A program made the translations under genes and the position numbers. From the NCBI GenBank assembly GCA_017622555.1, contig JAGAQV010000028.1:1-39101 (forward strand): DNA of 39,101 nucleotides, in the 5' to 3' direction. Origin of the DNA: Clostridia bacterium. Lineage in GTDB: Bacteria; Bacillota; Clostridia; Oscillospirales; Acutalibacteraceae. Below, piece after piece: positions 30,003-39,101 of this stretch (positions within the stretch are counted from its first letter, which is position 1; each line of letters starts with the position of its first letter). Below the pieces are notes generated by a model. It was not told the DNA's origin. It searched no databases and saw only the letters and a program-made list of their open reading frames with translations.

Positions 30003-33000
30003 TTAAGGCACAAATTTTACGTTATTATCCCCTAAAATTTCACACAATTTTTGGTTTAGTTCATCACATTTTTTAACGTAAAGACTTTGCGGTGCCGAAA
30101 GCCTTTTACCGCTGTCAATACAAACAATGTAAACGGGGGTTTCACCCTTATAACAACCTAAAATTTCTCTAATTTGTGAAAATTCGGGGCTTTGCTGACT
30201 TTTAACCCTTAAATAAAGGCCATCTTTAATATTGGGCTTTTTATCAACTGCGGCGCCTTTAAGGCTTTCGGGTATAATTTCAAGCTTTTCAAGTATAAGC
30301 TCAACGTCCCTGTCCTCCCTTTCAGACACTCGTCCTGTTAAAATAACGGGTTTAGCGTCGGTTAAAAGGGGTTTATAGGTGGCATAAGCATTAGCAAACA
30401 CCGTAACACTTACAGATGCCGAAACATCCTCAATTAAAGCGGTACATAAAAGATTGTTATTTTTAAGCTGACGCACCTTTACACCGCTTATTATACCCGC
30501 AACGGTAACACGCTTGCCGTCGGGATATTTACCTGTTGCAATATCAGCAAGTACTTCATACTTTGCATTCTTTAAAAAGCCCGCATAATCATCCATTGGG
30601 TGACCCGACAGATACAGCCCCGTTGCTTCCTTTTCTAGTGACAAAAGCATCTCCCTTGACATTTCGGGCACCTTTACAGGCTCGAACACGTTAGGCGAGC
30701 CCATTTCTTCAAATAAATTAAGCTGACCCTGTCCCGAAAAACGACGTTCGTTTTCAACTGCTGACAGCACCGCATCAATGTTGTAAAGCATTTCACGGCG
30801 GTTATTGCATACACAGTCCAAAGCACCGCTTTTTATAAGACCTTCAAGGGCCTTGCGGTTAAATTCACGGGAATAATTGCGAAGGCAAAAATCGTAAAAC
30901 GATTCATATTTACCGTTTTGTTCACGCTCGTTTATAAGCCTTTCAATAAGCACGAGCCCTAAATTTTTAATTGCCAAAAGCCCAAAGCGAATGTTATCAC
31001 CCTCAGGTGAAAAATAAGGATAGCTGTGATTAACCGACGGTGGCAAAATTTTAATGGCTGATTTTAGGCATTCGGCAGTGTACTGTGAAATTTTTAAGGG
31101 GCTATCCATCATACTTGTCATTAAAGCCGCAAAATATTTTGACGGGTAATGACACTTAAGGTAAGCCGTGCGGTAAGCCACAAAGGAATATGCGCAGGCG
31201 TGCGCTTTATTAAACGCATAAGAAGAAAAACTTGACATTTGGTCAAAAATTTTGTTAGCCGCTTCTTCACTTATACCAAAGGCTAAGGCGCCGTGGCTTA
31301 TAACGTTGCCGTTTTGGTCCTTTTCACCGTTAAGAAAAAATTCCTTTTCGCGCTTCATGACCTCGTGCTTCTTTTTGGCCATTGCACGACGAACAATATC
31401 TGCACGACCAAGCGAATAACCAGCCAAGGTTCTGAACACCTGCATTACCTGTTCCTGATAAACAATACAGCCGTAAGTTACACCCAGAATAGATTCAAGG
31501 GCAGGTATATCATATTTAATTTTATCGGGATTATGACGGTTTTCAATATAACGTGGAATAGAATCCATAGGTCCCGGGCGGTAAAGTGATAAAACCGCAG
31601 TTAAATCCTCAATACTTTCGGGATTTAACTGGCGAAGCACGTTCTTCATTCCGTCAGATTCAAACTGAAATACGCCAAGGGTTTTTCCCTTTGCCATCAT
31701 ATTATATGTTGCTTTATCATCAAGCGGTATTTTTTCAATATCAAAGCTTGGATCTTCAAGACGAATGTATTTTTGGGTATCATCAATAATTGTTAAATTT
31801 CGAAGTCCCAAAAAGTCCATTTTTAAAAGACCCAATTCCTCAAGGGATGTCATTGTAAACTGCGTAACAGTCGCTTCATCGTTAACAGCAAGGGGCACGT
31901 ATTCGGCAACAGGCTTATCCGAAATAACAACGCCTGCCGCATGGGTTGAGGCGTGTCGAGGCATACCCTCAAGCTTCATTGCCATATCAATAAGCTCTTT
32001 AACTGCCGCGTCATTTTCATAAAGCTCACGCAGCTCGCGCCCACCCTCAAGCGCACGGGCAATTGTCATACCAACCGCTTGTGGAATAAGCTTTGCAACC
32101 TTGTCACAAATGGCATAAGGTACATCCATTGCCCTGCCGACATCCCTTACTGCCGCACGGGCAGCAAGCGTACCAAAGGTTACAATTTGGGAAACGTGAT
32201 CTTCACCGTATTTCTGGATTACATAGTCAATAACCTTTTGGCGATTAACATAGCAAAAGTCAATGTCAAAGTCAGGCATTGAAACACGTTCGGGGTTTAA
32301 AAAGCGTTCAAAATACAAATCATATTTAATGGGATCAATGCCTGTAATGCCAATGCACTGCGCCGCAAGTGAAGCTGCACCAGAGCCACGACCGGGCCCG
32401 ACGGGAATGTCGTGCGTTTTGGCGTAGTTTACAAAGTCGGCCACTATTAAAAAGTAGTCAACATAGCCCATTTTATTTATAACCGAAAGCTCATAATTCA
32501 GTCGGTCAACATATTCCTTTTTGGCATTTTCACCGTAAATTTTATAAAGTCCATCAAAGCATTTTTCCTTAAAATACTCAAAGTGGTCACGCTCCCCTAT
32601 ATCAAAATGTGGCAGCTTAATTTTACCAAATTCAAATGTAACATTACACTTTTCAGCAATTTTGTTTGCATTCTCAAGTGCTTCGGGCACATTCGGGAAA
32701 AGCGCCGCCATTTGCTCGTAGCTTTTTAAATAAAATTCGTTAGTTTTAAATTCTAAAATATTATCGTCAGTAATTTTGGTTGCAGTTTGAATACAAACTA
32801 AAACCTTGTGCATTTTATAGTCACTATCATTTATATAATGTACGTCATTTGTAGCAACAAGGGGTATATTACACTCGTTGGCAATACGGATAATTTGCGG
32901 GTTTACAAGCTTTTGTTCCTGTATGCCATGGTCCTGAATTTCAAGGTAAAAATCTTCCCCAAAAACCGATTTGTACCAAAGCGCAGTTGCCTTTGCCTTA

Positions 33001-33452
33001 TCATAATCCCCATCCATTAAAGCACGGGGAATTTCACCCGCCAAGCAAGCAGAAAGACACACTAAGCCCTTGGAATATTTCTTTATAAGCTCACGGTCAA
33101 CACGGGGCTTTGAATAAAAGCCTTCGGTAAAGCCTGCAGACACTAATTTAATTAAATTTTGATACCCCTCATTATCCTTACATAAAAGCACTAAATGGGT
33201 ATAACCGTCAAGTCCCTTTTGCTTATCAAAACGGCCACGGGTTGAAACGTAAACCTCACACCCAATAATCGGCTTTACACCCTTTTTAATGGCGTATTTA
33301 TAAAAATCTATCACGCCGTACATAACGCCGTGGTCGGTGATGGCAATGCTTTTTTGACCTATTTCAGCCGCACGGTCGATAAGTTGTTTTATACGGGCAC
33401 AGCCGTCTAACAAGCTATATTCGGTATGCACGTGCAAATGCGTAAAATCCAT
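30003..33452 (-). CDS. dnaE: DNA polymerase III alpha subunit DnaE
   Basis: A 1149-residue replicative polymerase of the DnaE type. It opens with the PHP domain (FTHLHVHTEYSLLDGC), then the palm with GPGRGSGAASLAAQ and the catalytic aspartates of MPDFDIDF, fingers, the tandem HhH region, and a C-terminal OB-fold (VTVAGIISGVKV). Firmicutes use DnaE for lagging-strand priming next to PolC. The ATG at 33452 is chosen because AAAGGAG lies 9 nt upstream; an ATG three codons earlier directly abuts that site. Originally it probably followed whiA by 15 nt, but an inserted repeat element now separates them. Confidence 0.97.
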   Translation of the reverse strand: MDFTHLHVHTEYSLLDGCARIKQLIDRAAEIGQKSIAITDHGVMYGVIDFYKYAIKKGVKPIIGCEVYVSTRGRFDKQKGLDGYTHLVLLCKDNEGYQNLIKLVSAGFTEGFYSKPRVDRELIKKYSKGLVCLSACLAGEIPRALMDGDYDKAKATALWYKSVFGEDFYLEIQDHGIQEQKLVNPQIIRIANECNIPLVATNDVHYINDSDYKMHKVLVCIQTATKITDDNILEFKTNEFYLKSYEQMAALFPNVPEALENANKIAEKCNVTFEFGKIKLPHFDIGERDHFEYFKEKCFDGLYKIYGENAKKEYVDRLNYELSVINKMGYVDYFLIVADFVNYAKTHDIPVGPGRGSGAASLAAQCIGITGIDPIKYDLYFERFLNPERVSMPDFDIDFCYVNRQKVIDYVIQKYGEDHVSQIVTFGTLAARAAVRDVGRAMDVPYAICDKVAKLIPQAVGMTIARALEGGRELRELYENDAAVKELIDMAMKLEGMPRHASTHAAGVVISDKPVAEYVPLAVNDEATVTQFTMTSLEELGLLKMDFLGLRNLTIIDDTQKYIRLEDPSFDIEKIPLDDKATYNMMAKGKTLGVFQFESDGMKNVLRQLNPESIEDLTAVLSLYRPGPMDSIPRYIENRHNPDKIKYDIPALESILGVTYGCIVYQEQVMQVFRTLAGYSLGRADIVRRAMAKKKHEVMKREKEFFLNGEKDQNGNVISHGALAFGISEEAANKIFDQMSSFSSYAFNKAHACAYSFVAYRTAYLKCHYPSKYFAALMTSMMDSPLKISQYTAECLKSAIKILPPSVNHSYPYFSPEGDNIRFGLLAIKNLGLVLIERLINEREQNGKYESFYDFCLRNYSREFNRKALEGLIKSGALDCVCNNRREMLYNIDAVLSAVENERRFSGQGQLNLFEEMGSPNVFEPVKVPEMSREMLLSLEKEATGLYLSGHPMDDYAGFLKNAKYEVLADIATGKYPDGKRVTVAGIISGVKVRQLKNNNLLCTALIEDVSASVSVTVFANAYATYKPLLTDAKPVILTGRVSEREDRDVELILEKLEIIPESLKGAAVDKKPNIKDGLYLRVKSQQSPEFSQIREILGCYKGETPVYIVCIDSGKRLSAPQSLYVKKCDELNQKLCEILGDNNVKFVP

Positions 33453-33467
33453 AATTGCCATCTCCTT

Positions 33468-33866
33468 TCAAATTATGCCTTCCCCTTGAGGGGAAGGGGG
33501 ACCGCTTGCGGTGGATGAGGTGGAAATATACCTTAATATTTCCTCGCAAACACCTCTGAAATTATTATCAATATCATAGTTTGAATATCTCAAAATCGTT
33601 AAACCAAGATTTTTAAAATATTCATCTCTTGCCTTATCATTTTCTATCCCAAGCGGTTCGAAATGTTGCGAACCGTCAAGTTCGATTATCAACTTTGCCT
33701 AAGCGCAATAAAAATCAGCAATATAACACCCTATGACCTTTTGACGATTAAAATTTACTGTTAATCCTTTCAAAAAGTCATACCATAAATGCCTTTCGTG
33801 TCTTGTCATGTTTCGGCGAAGTGTTTGCGAATTATGAGTTAATTTGGGATTACTAGTTGTGTTCAT
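33468..33866 (-). pseudogene. DUF559 (Vsr-like) endonuclease gene with an in-frame amber stop
   Basis: A 132-codon frame encoding a DUF559-family protein: LRRNMTRHERHLWYDFL, RQKVIGCYIADFYC, a break, then AKLIIELDGSQH and GLTILRYSNYDIDNN. These are PD-(D/E)XK/Vsr-like nuclease motifs. Codon 56 is TAG (33701-33699) where a sense codon is expected, and the frame stays open on both sides, so a single substitution broke it. The ATG at 33866 is preceded by GAGGTG from the flanking repeat. The last ~15 codons (SGPPSPQGEG...) are translated from the opposite repeat, ending at TGA (33470-33468) in dnaE's leader. A short downstream TTG frame could still express the C-terminal half. Confidence 0.85.
33477..33523 (+). 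repeat. Palindromic repeat copy A (left end of the DUF559 element)
   Basis: Two hairpins and a tail: CCTTCCCC-TTGA-GGGGAAGG, then CCGC-TT-GCGG, then GGATGAGGTGG pointing inward to the DUF559 gene. It is an inverted copy of copy B (33871-33915), with the second hairpin changed in sequence but kept as a hairpin. Confidence 0.9.
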
Positions 33867-33870
33867 TCAA

Positions 33871-33915
33871 CACCTCATCCGTCACTTCGTGACACCTTCC
33901 CCTCAAGGGGAAGGC
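33871..33915 (-). repeat. Palindromic repeat copy B (right end of the DUF559 element)
   Basis: Minus strand: GCCTTCCCC-TTGA-GGGGAAGG, then GTCAC-GAA-GTGAC, then GGATGAGGTG. The final GAGGTG lies 4 nt before the DUF559 ATG and serves as its Shine-Dalgarno. The same bases, read in whiA's frame, code its last 13 residues and its TGA stop. Confidence 0.92.
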
Positions 33916-34798
33916 TTAATTCATATATCTCAATTATCTTATTAAGCCTATGATTAAGCCCCGAAACCGTAATTGGTGTGGGTGAAATTTTGCAAAGCTC
34001 TTTAAGTGTTGCTTCGGGATTATTTTTACGAAGAAGTGCCACGTCCAAAAGTTCTTGAGGTAAACTTAAAAGCCTGTCCGCCTGTTCTAAATATTCAATA
34101 GCTTTTCGCTGTTTTATGGACGCCTCAACCGTTTTGGTGATATTTGCATTGTCGCAATTACGCTGGCGGTTAATATTATTTTTAACGCTCTTCATAATTT
34201 TAGCATCCATAATTTGAAGTGTGCGGTGAGTATCGCCCATAAGGGTTAAAAGGTCCTCAATCATACTGCTGTCCTTGGTATAAAGTATGATTGCCGTTCC
34301 CCTTTGGGTTTTCTTCATAAATATATCATATTGCTGTAAAAGCTCGTCCAAATCATTAGCAAGTGCTTCATTTTTAACCGAAAATTCGGCGCGGTATTCT
34401 TTTTCAGGGTCATTTATATTACCGCAGGCCAAAAATGCCCCCCTAATAAAACTTAAAGGGCAACATTCACGCACAAAAAGGCTACGGTCAATAACCGTTT
34501 CGCTAATACCAAAATCAATAAGCGCCAAAATTTTAAGGCGGTCAGACGCAGACTCAACCTCGGCCTTGTATGTGGGTCTTTTGCTGCCGCCGCAGGTAAT
34601 TTTAACATTGGCGCCATAATTAAATTTAATTAAATCAGCATAGGCCTTAGCAACGTTTTCGTTACCTGTTTGAAGCGCAATTTTCTTTATTGAAAAAGAC
34701 CTTCCGAAAAGCATAAACCCGTATATATATGACGGCTTACAGCAGGCGGAAGGTCTTATAGCGATAAGTTCATTTTTAACATCACTGCAAAAAGACAT
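33875..34798 (-). CDS. whiA: Sporulation/cell-division regulator WhiA, with a repeat-encoded C-terminal tail
   Basis: A 307-residue WhiA: N-terminal degenerate LAGLIDADG homing-endonuclease-like domains (SFCSDVKNELI, SFIRGAFLACGNINDPEKEYRAEF) and a C-terminal helix-turn-helix (LKELCKISPTPITVSGLNHRLNKI). WhiA binds DNA and affects cell division in Firmicutes. The natural protein should end close to NKIIEIYE; the last 13 residues (SLPLEGKVSRSDG) come from repeat copy B, which also supplies the stop. The HTH is intact, so function is probably kept. The ATG at 34798 has GAGGAT upstream. It is 4 nt from the 94-aa gene. Confidence 0.95.
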   Translation of the reverse strand: MSFCSDVKNELIAIRPSACCKPSYIYGFMLFGRSFSIKKIALQTGNENVAKAYADLIKFNYGANVKITCGGSKRPTYKAEVESASDRLKILALIDFGISETVIDRSLFVRECCPLSFIRGAFLACGNINDPEKEYRAEFSVKNEALANDLDELLQQYDIFMKKTQRGTAIILYTKDSSMIEDLLTLMGDTHRTLQIMDAKIMKSVKNNINRQRNCDNANITKTVEASIKQRKAIEYLEQADRLLSLPQELLDVALLRKNNPEATLKELCKISPTPITVSGLNHRLNKIIEIYELSLPLEGKVSRSDG

Positions 34799-38986: not shown

Positions 38987-39031
38987 GGCTTCCCCTTGAG
39001 GGGAAGCTGTCACGTAGTGACTGATGAGGTG
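38987..39031 (+). repeat. Palindromic repeat copy C
   Basis: GGCTTCCCC-TTGA-GGGGAAGC, then GTCAC-GTA-GTGAC, then TGATGAGGTG. The stem base pair C-G of copy A has become G-C here, a compensated change that keeps the hairpin. Confidence 0.88.
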
Positions 39032-39056
39032 TAATTTTCAGTAATTAAATAGTTTT

Positions 39057-39101
39057 CCACCTCATCCGCCTCGTATACTCAGCACCTTCCCCTCAAGGGG
39101 A
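39057..39101 (-). repeat. Palindromic repeat copy D (incomplete)
   Basis: Minus strand: TCCCC-TTGA-GGGGAAGG, a divergent middle with GTATAC at its centre, then GGCGGATGAGGTGG. The outer end is beyond the window. Confidence 0.8.

Follow-up and report, generated by a model that had tools for sequence, protein, structure and literature searches.

In RAYT systems, short inverted pairs of palindromic repeats are non-autonomous copies, and the repeat family follows the clade of the enzyme. The complete REP/RAYT arrangement, or REPtron, consists of a gene between inverted palindromic repeats that are also found without it (PMC3733652, in part), and the same organization was found at the DUF559 loci of this study. 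However, REP/RAYT uses an HUH tyrosine transposase and has a GTAG tag, whereas the DUF559 element has a probable Vsr-like PD-(D/E)XK nuclease and arms that have no GTAG and carry a triplex code. MITEs with DDE transposases are short inverted-repeat elements without a gene, like the short arm pairs described below, but the DUF559 unit differs from them in having no known transposase class and no target duplication visible by eye.

The arms also have a described counterpart in TM_ECO, alias BoxC or PIT, which is an intrastrand triplex motif made of a stem, a purine stem and a second purine strand (Holder et al. 2015, PMC4666352). According to the available parts of that paper, the recognition of triplex-type palindromes in E. 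coli goes back to the 1990s, with one type present in 3610 copies in 262 proteobacterial genomes and 23 TM_ECO repeats in K-12 MG1655; these parts name neither an enzyme nor a way of spreading for TM_ECO and have the authors stating that mobility functions were never found nearby (PMC4666352). Like the window arms, TM_ECO has an H1 stem with a mirrored purine tail and forms inverted pairs of two arm types, and like DUF559 arms it is intergenic and shows presence/absence polymorphism. The Y stem, R stem and second R strand with triplex pairing that a triplex motif requires are found in DUF559 arms in general and, with 7 of 8 positions fitting, in the window arms. However, the second loop of TM_ECO is 3 nt long whereas the window arms have the hairpin H2 there; with its linker this loop measures 14-15 nt, outside the loop range of 1-6 nt given for the ITxF search rule in the available text (PMC4666352).

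The DUF559, YcjD and VsrA nucleases are of the same Pfam family as the window gene and until now have been predicted repair or restriction-type nucleases. As far as the available parts of the respective papers go, the DUF559 gene ycjD is present in E. coli K-12 (PMC12817139), a YcjD profile finds Vsr (PMC1189080), and VsrA of Caulobacter contains a DUF559 domain (PMC12907096). In the open-access literature naming DUF559, titles and abstract beginnings gave no tie to repeats or mobility.

The window, meaning the whole stretch of DNA analyzed, is 39,101 nt of a Clostridia bacterium (contig JAGAQV010000028.1). The initial annotation had described ~46-bp inverted two-hairpin repeats around a DUF559 gene alone, and this layout was recovered (Table 1): in both arms the order from the outside inward is H1, linker, H2 and tail GGATGAGGTG, and the DUF559 gene is the sole content between them. 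Together with 6-7 nt of flank, the outer hairpins make up an inverted repeat of 27 nt with 96% complementarity. As single-stranded DNA both arms are predicted to fold into two hairpins (z of -4.27 and -2.78), with 0/200 and 4/200 shuffles equally stable. By eye, the GTAG tetranucleotide was absent from the repeat ends of the window arms and of the arms listed from other loci. An Rfam family identity was considered and rejected, as the only two matches (E 0.78 and 0.96) were under the gathering scores.

Table 1. Positions of the element, its parts and its neighbors in the window.
Feature	Positions	Strand	Remarks
Whole element	33477..33915	.	439 nt, from the outer G of one arm to the outer C of the other
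Arm D, downstream of DUF559 gene	33477..33522	+	H1 CCTTCCCCTTGAGGGGAAGG, linker GGG, H2 ACCGCTTGCGGT, tail GGATGAGGTG inward
Arm U, upstream of DUF559 gene	33871..33915	-	H1 CCTTCCCCTTGAGGGGAAGG, linker T, H2 GTCACGAAGTGAC, tail GGATGAGGTG inward
DUF559 reading frame	33468..33866	-	ATG at 33866, one internal TAG; stop at 33468-33470, just outside the element
DUF559 (PF04480) domain	33525..33845	-	102.1 bits, positions 2-108 of 109
In-frame TAG of DUF559 gene	33699..33701	-	
whiA frame	33875..34798	-	last codons come from arm U
dnaE, downstream neighbor	30003..33461	-	first ATG 15 nt beyond the element
Short pair without DUF559 (H1-H2-tail ... tail'-H2'-H1')	38988..39101	.	cut by contig end

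The DUF559 frame of the window traverses the left arm before it stops, and because of its in-frame TAG this copy is either a pseudogene or contains a sequence error. PF04480, which the window copy also matches, was the sole family over the cut-off for four proteins of the DUF559 loci, and none of these four matched an HUH tyrosine transposase of the IS200/IS605 type. Residues E17, D44, E55, D57 and H61 are invariant in 15 aligned DUF559 rows and are presumably catalytic, and the nearest solved structure by sequence is 3hrl (1.6e-13). By the 3hrl match and the YcjD profile that finds Vsr, DUF559 is a probable Vsr-like nuclease of the PD-(D/E)XK superfamily. The median dN/dS over 115 DUF559 pairs was 0.089, and the protein is under purifying selection. 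Two loci carry DUF559 in frame within a much longer reading frame, namely a long annotated protein of Pseudanabaena (L347, 385 to beyond 3291) and a 799-aa open frame (L098, genome G069).

Enclosure was scored as the best local alignment between the 300 nt upstream and the reverse complement of the 300 nt downstream, with a threshold of at least 30. When four sets were pooled, inverted flanking repeats over the threshold were found at 147/214 DUF559 loci compared to 11/1693 control placements, though not all rows are independent: genes and flanks are identical within L094/L148 and within L034/L196, each of which amounts to a single locus, the counted rows include the orthologous pairs L019/L021, L099/L100 and L002/L023, and L118 looks like a false domain match. 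The genus/order set gave 53/70 enclosed rows vs 2/397 random placements, the 70 rows coming from 68 locus ids (L062 was counted twice, L004 is two real loci) with four rows near contig ends dropped and five ids without a new match. Named-species loci were enclosed in 48/78 cases (two of 80 dropped) vs 5/924 placements and 2/130 other genes, and fresh loci in 33/45 (six of 51 dropped, three of 54 ids without a new match) vs 0/264 placements. Loci mostly of other phyla, a non-random sample of 21 of 35 plasmid-collection records with a match, some of them chromosomes, were enclosed in 13/21 cases vs 4/108 placements using 350-nt flanks. Phages were considered as a source of clean empty sites and set aside: two phage records matched DUF559 and were scored; of 79 viral-contig loci, L201-L205 were the only ones scored. 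Enclosure is thus a general property of DUF559 genes and not peculiar to the window locus.

A scored inverted pair was lacking at 24 to 38% of loci in the three Clostridia sets, and many had one-sided arms. A motif detector found at least one triplex-type arm within 300 nt of 192/213 DUF559 loci vs 13/407 placements, and its other controls gave 11/158 for other genes and 1/24 for whiA loci. This detector gave 174/193 under a mirror rule vs 140/193 under a direct rule; these counts are so close that they do not separate the two rules sharply, and only the covariation test described below does. DUF559 matches, weak ones included, occurred in 28/98 genomes of the order sample and 35/118 of the class sample, and a match was found in 30/61 genomes of the genus sample. 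The window genome has four, all beside or within same-layout repeats of at least three H1 families, although at one of these loci (L003) the arms are, by eye, on one side only. The initial annotation had held that DUF559 genes lacking these repeats elsewhere in the genome would count against it. Such genes do exist with regard to the window's own repeat, but they are flanked by families of the same layout.

A search for the repeat in related genomes, which had also been suggested, found 38 occurrences of the H1 sequence CTTCCCCTNNAGGGGAAG (1 mismatch allowed) in 61 genus genomes compared to 0 for the reversed control, which is far above chance, and inverted pairs around DUF559 genes were recurrent; in two genomes (G016 and G049) the sole two copies are the pair around the DUF559 gene. 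Repeats in genomes with no DUF559 gene had likewise been held to speak against the proposal. They do occur, at low copy, and are more common with the gene: H1 CTTCCCC was present in 4/31 genomes without detected DUF559, many of which are incomplete assemblies, vs 10/30 with the gene, CTCCCTCTGANGAGGGAG was present in 11/31 vs 16/30, and its copies numbered 25 in the 31 genomes without vs 131 in the 30 with DUF559. The spacing of the H1 type CTCCCTCTGANGAGGGAG was bimodal. Among 150 listed of 156 sites there were 37 neighboring inverted pairs, of which 15 were 420-433 nt apart, all 15 with a DUF559 match, while 21 were 95-117 nt apart and one was at 162, none with DUF559. The long and short pairs look like autonomous and non-autonomous forms. 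With a flanked gene, gene-less short pairs and PF04480 as the only family, the likeness to REP/RAYT with a Vsr-like nuclease replacing the transposase, as initially proposed, is supported as a likeness.

Some genomes hold up to 28 sites of one H1 type. The window genome (G000) has six short-pair copies of the window's H1 type, identical over the available part, and all six, on contigs C10, C11, C14, C22 and C23, are at contig ends. Because of this position, the short-pair repeat seems to break the assembly, and there may be more copies than were counted. Short arm pairs, along with other repeats, also occur nested within a larger stretch bounded by AAATTATAGTTTATCGGG and AAACCCCAATTT (window positions 38988-39101; positions 2990-3270 of L001), which is possibly a separate MITE family.

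What is new here is that tail and H1 covary as mirror images by an antiparallel-triplex code. In antiparallel purine-motif triplexes, the third strand places G over G:C, A or T over A:T, and T over C:G. Comparison between families shows a tail that mirrors the H1 3' strand, in which A is answered by A or T and C by T, as in the H1/tail combinations GAGGGAGC with TGAGGGAG, AGGAGAGG with GGAGAGGT and GGAGAAGG with GGATGAGG. In 51 distinct H1/tail pairs, G in the H1 3' strand corresponded to G in the tail in 249/281 cells, A to A or T in 113/119 and C to T in 20/24. Over 20 families the mean fit to the triplex code was 0.930 compared to 0.612 for shuffled tails (0/10000 shuffles as good). The pooled plain mirror identity was 0.798 vs 0.567 (0/10000 as good), and because it too beats all shuffles, it is the cell counts that carry the A to T and C to T refinement. 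The code, selected on the first data, was tested unchanged on fresh loci, where 0/5000 shuffles were as good; for the seven H1 types new to the fresh set the figure was 4/5000, with plain mirror identity equally good (4/5000). The pooled test uses both data sets with the tail offset fixed by the linker; 200/247 parsed arms passed the purine-strand filter (160/197 in the first data, 40/50 fresh), and 28/200 arms with odd linkers were dropped. In the window arms the tail GGATGAGG fits its own H1 (GGGGAAGG) at 7/8 positions and the sister type CTTCTCC at 8/8.

Watson-Crick pairing of the tail with the H1 5' arm was considered as well and rejected, because same-direction identity in the pooled families was no better than shuffles (0.454 vs 0.491; 9477/10000 as good, and 1409/5000 in the first data). 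It was slightly better than shuffles in the fresh set (222/5000; 755/5000 for the new H1 types alone). The arms look as if they could take up a triple-helical DNA fold, in which H2 would act as the hinge. A G-rich arm could also form a quadruplex, which the available parts of Holder et al. name as a competitor, and the same parts report that DMS footprinting revealed no stable triplex inside cells (PMC4666352).

Gene and arms go together. On a FastTree tree of 107 DUF559 proteins, from which three proteins with unique H1 were left out, H1 type required 19 changes compared to a shuffled mean of 58.8 and minimum of 51 (300 shuffles), so the H1 family follows the nuclease tree, and the same H1 core was on both arms in 49/54 loci. 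Unit length was 429-461 nt in 44/56 units, and G was just outside H1 at 52/56 left ends and 52/56 right ends, but beyond these constant ends the flanking sequences of units differ. Many near-identical DUF559 genes have no matching flanks. Two loci from different bacterial families (L056 and L113) have DUF559 genes 97.5% identical. Their sequences are also alike for ~100 nt on the upstream side of the arms and ~50 nt on the downstream side, and past 130 nt the flanks gave no match of at least 60 nt; we read the alike near-flanks as a common repeated target or carrier sequence. These two and L038, L041, L037, L036 and L193 belong to one DUF559 subclade and share a repeated outer context, GTTGTTATGCGGAA... 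and ...CTAATTTGTCCCTAATTTGACACAAGCATATAA, with different genes after it, and our reading of this context is a preferred target or a larger carrier. In one assembly (isolate SIG675), two DUF559 genes are 100% identical (L172 and L175), ~700 nt are alike (95%), and a short arm pair lies downstream of DUF559 with no enclosure.

The insertion site itself was compared using 30 loci, WhiA being present in 57/61 genus genomes and junctions being taken where whiA and dnaE motifs were located. The block, described earlier as sitting inside an otherwise compact whiA-dnaE operon, is inserted in the 3' end of whiA, whose frame now stops within the arm; two close relatives have a plain junction. In G016, the closest relative (WhiA 90% identical), this insertion occupies the identical position and its DUF559 frame is open. 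Empty whiA-dnaE junctions, proposed as something to look for, are present in G022 and G055 (WhiA 80% and 78%) as plain short junctions, and the distance between the whiA and dnaE motifs is 89-157 nt in 15 loci, G055 included. In G003 (WhiA 79%) a different reading frame occupies the junction. In G013 (WhiA 79%) there is likewise a DUF559 gene in the junction, but it begins only once whiA has ended at its own stop; a short arm pair follows it downstream, and the left arm is decayed at best. Its protein is closer to that of L047 (0.76), at another site in another genome, than to the DUF559 proteins of G000 and G016, which are absent from its best eight, the eighth being 0.69. Because the G013 insertion differs from that of G000 and G016 in position and protein affinity, the junction seems to have been hit twice. 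The target duplications that had been suggested as something to look for were not seen by eye in the flank pairs of 56 elements, and for any DUF559-bearing element no precise empty site with target duplication, transposition event or excision product was seen. In G018 (L070) the same junction holds a small reading frame, which we take to encode a four-helix-bundle protein, framed by inverted arrays of AATTCGGAATGCGTA-type repeats; this is perhaps another gene-plus-repeat element.

DUF559 genes within or beside such repeats were also found in Deinococcus, cyanobacteria, alphaproteobacteria and E. coli (ycjD). The 13 plasmid-collection loci scoring at least 30 were from Deinococcus, Azospirillum, Sphingomonas, Novosphingobium, Pseudanabaena, Sinorhizobium meliloti and Neisseria gonorrhoeae; the eight remaining, E. 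coli included, were below 30, most with the motif on one side. The window's own tail GGATGAGG is found on one arm in Shinella, the Clostridia linker pattern TGG-H2-ACGGAGG recurs in Novosphingobium, and insertions lie inside operons (paaD-paaZ, sufB-sufC, and between transhydrogenase genes). The layout is not uniform across phyla, because in part of the other phyla, as in Deinococcus L339 and L340, the tails point outward.

In E. coli, ycjD adjoins such motifs and is not enclosed by them (SW 20). A decayed TM lies directly after the gene, and a copy identical to TM_ECO no. 19 and 22 lies at 167 and 182 nt in two strains; by our own estimate, based on 23 copies in 4.6 Mb, about 0.005 such cases would be expected by chance. 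At least 80% of the ycjD stretch is held by 3364/5426 E. coli genomes. Strains free of ycjD were considered as clean empty sites and rejected, since the two strains examined carry other genes there (see also PMC12817139). At hrpB-mrcB, MG1655 has the TM_ECO 1+2 pair, KE40 lacks it and is 102 nt shorter, and EH2252, which is 64 nt shorter, has a single hybrid hairpin in its place; this polymorphism cannot tell gain from loss.

Taken as a whole, the gene and its arms very likely form one mobile unit. The reading that we prefer, and consider likely, is an autonomous mobile element made of a DUF559 nuclease gene and two inverted terminal triplex arms, with the short pairs as its non-autonomous offspring. 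We infer that DUF559 moves the repeats; that the nuclease acts in the mobility of the unit is probable, if a little less so, and the suggestion that the triplex fold is what the nuclease recognizes is close to evenly balanced, with the balance slightly against it. Under the proposed mechanism, a strand exposed by replication or transcription would allow an arm to fold, the tail lying over the H1 stem as a third strand and the turn being provided by H2 or a short loop. The nuclease of that family would then recognize its cognate fold and cut at or near the arms, and host replication and repair would finish copying or moving the unit to a new site, mostly between genes, without a recognizable target duplication. 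Movement of the short pairs would take place in trans, much as RAYTs mobilize REPINs. We know of no PD-(D/E)XK nuclease that joins DNA, and for that reason a host partner must be assumed.

Other explanations share parts of this evidence. The arms could be the selfish repeats, mobilized by some other enzyme or through replication slippage, with DUF559 as a passenger or as a structure-clearing nuclease that trims triplex-prone repeats and thereby became fixed inside. Arms do exist without the gene, slippage is sufficient for the single hybrid hairpin of EH2252, and the PD-(D/E)XK superfamily includes enzymes cutting branched DNA (PMC1189080, in part). However, the gene lies between the arms in most loci, cognate H1 is found on both sides and along the tree, and no long CTCCCTCTGANGAGGGAG pair among the listed sites lacks DUF559, all of which makes this explanation unlikely. 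Hairpins selected for expression, serving a small gene between them as bidirectional terminators or as signals for mRNA processing, would account for arms that are intergenic and form stable hairpins, but the tail is G-rich and in mirror code with H1, and the PIT/BoxC motifs showed no terminator activity in the earlier tests mentioned in the available parts of Holder et al. (PMC4666352). The terminator reading was rejected on the lack of a T-run and on the 147/158 other genes in the same loci that have no such arms, and we consider it very improbable.

The EDxHD family of homing endonucleases is Vsr-like. Such a family, named in the abstract of an earlier paper (PMC6083498), lends some plausibility to DUF559 cutting the element-free allele and being copied in by homologous recombination, with the arms as cut or recognition sites and no transposon ends. 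The orthologous occupied sites of G000 and G016 would fit this, but dispersed copies at unrelated sites and between families would not, and neither a strict internal arm code nor short non-autonomous pairs would be expected; we regard homing as quite unlikely. Chance nesting of one gene in a repeat-rich region could be entertained for the genomes that are rich in such repeats, but it is contradicted by all placement and other-gene controls and its probability is negligible.

The preferred reading, that of a mobile element with its own nuclease, can be extended beyond the Clostridia. DUF559 nucleases would then be the missing mobility enzymes of triplex-forming palindromic repeats throughout bacteria, the repeat would be recognized by the third-strand code, and BoxC/PIT/TM_ECO together with the CCCTCACCC...CCTCTCCC-type repeats of cyanobacteria, Deinococcus and rhizobia would be non-autonomous offspring; this extension is tentative and somewhat more doubtful than probable. 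To our knowledge, the only gene of the unit belongs to no known transposase class. If DUF559 had no part in mobility, what is left would be a further, new form of gene-plus-palindrome arrangement. The idea is directly testable in E. coli, as the TM_ECO repeats and ycjD are both present in K-12. If it is true, an uncharacterized Pfam family would become a new class of DNA-mobility enzyme, the DNA triplex would gain a biological reader, and a large share of bacterial intergenic repeats would have a single origin.
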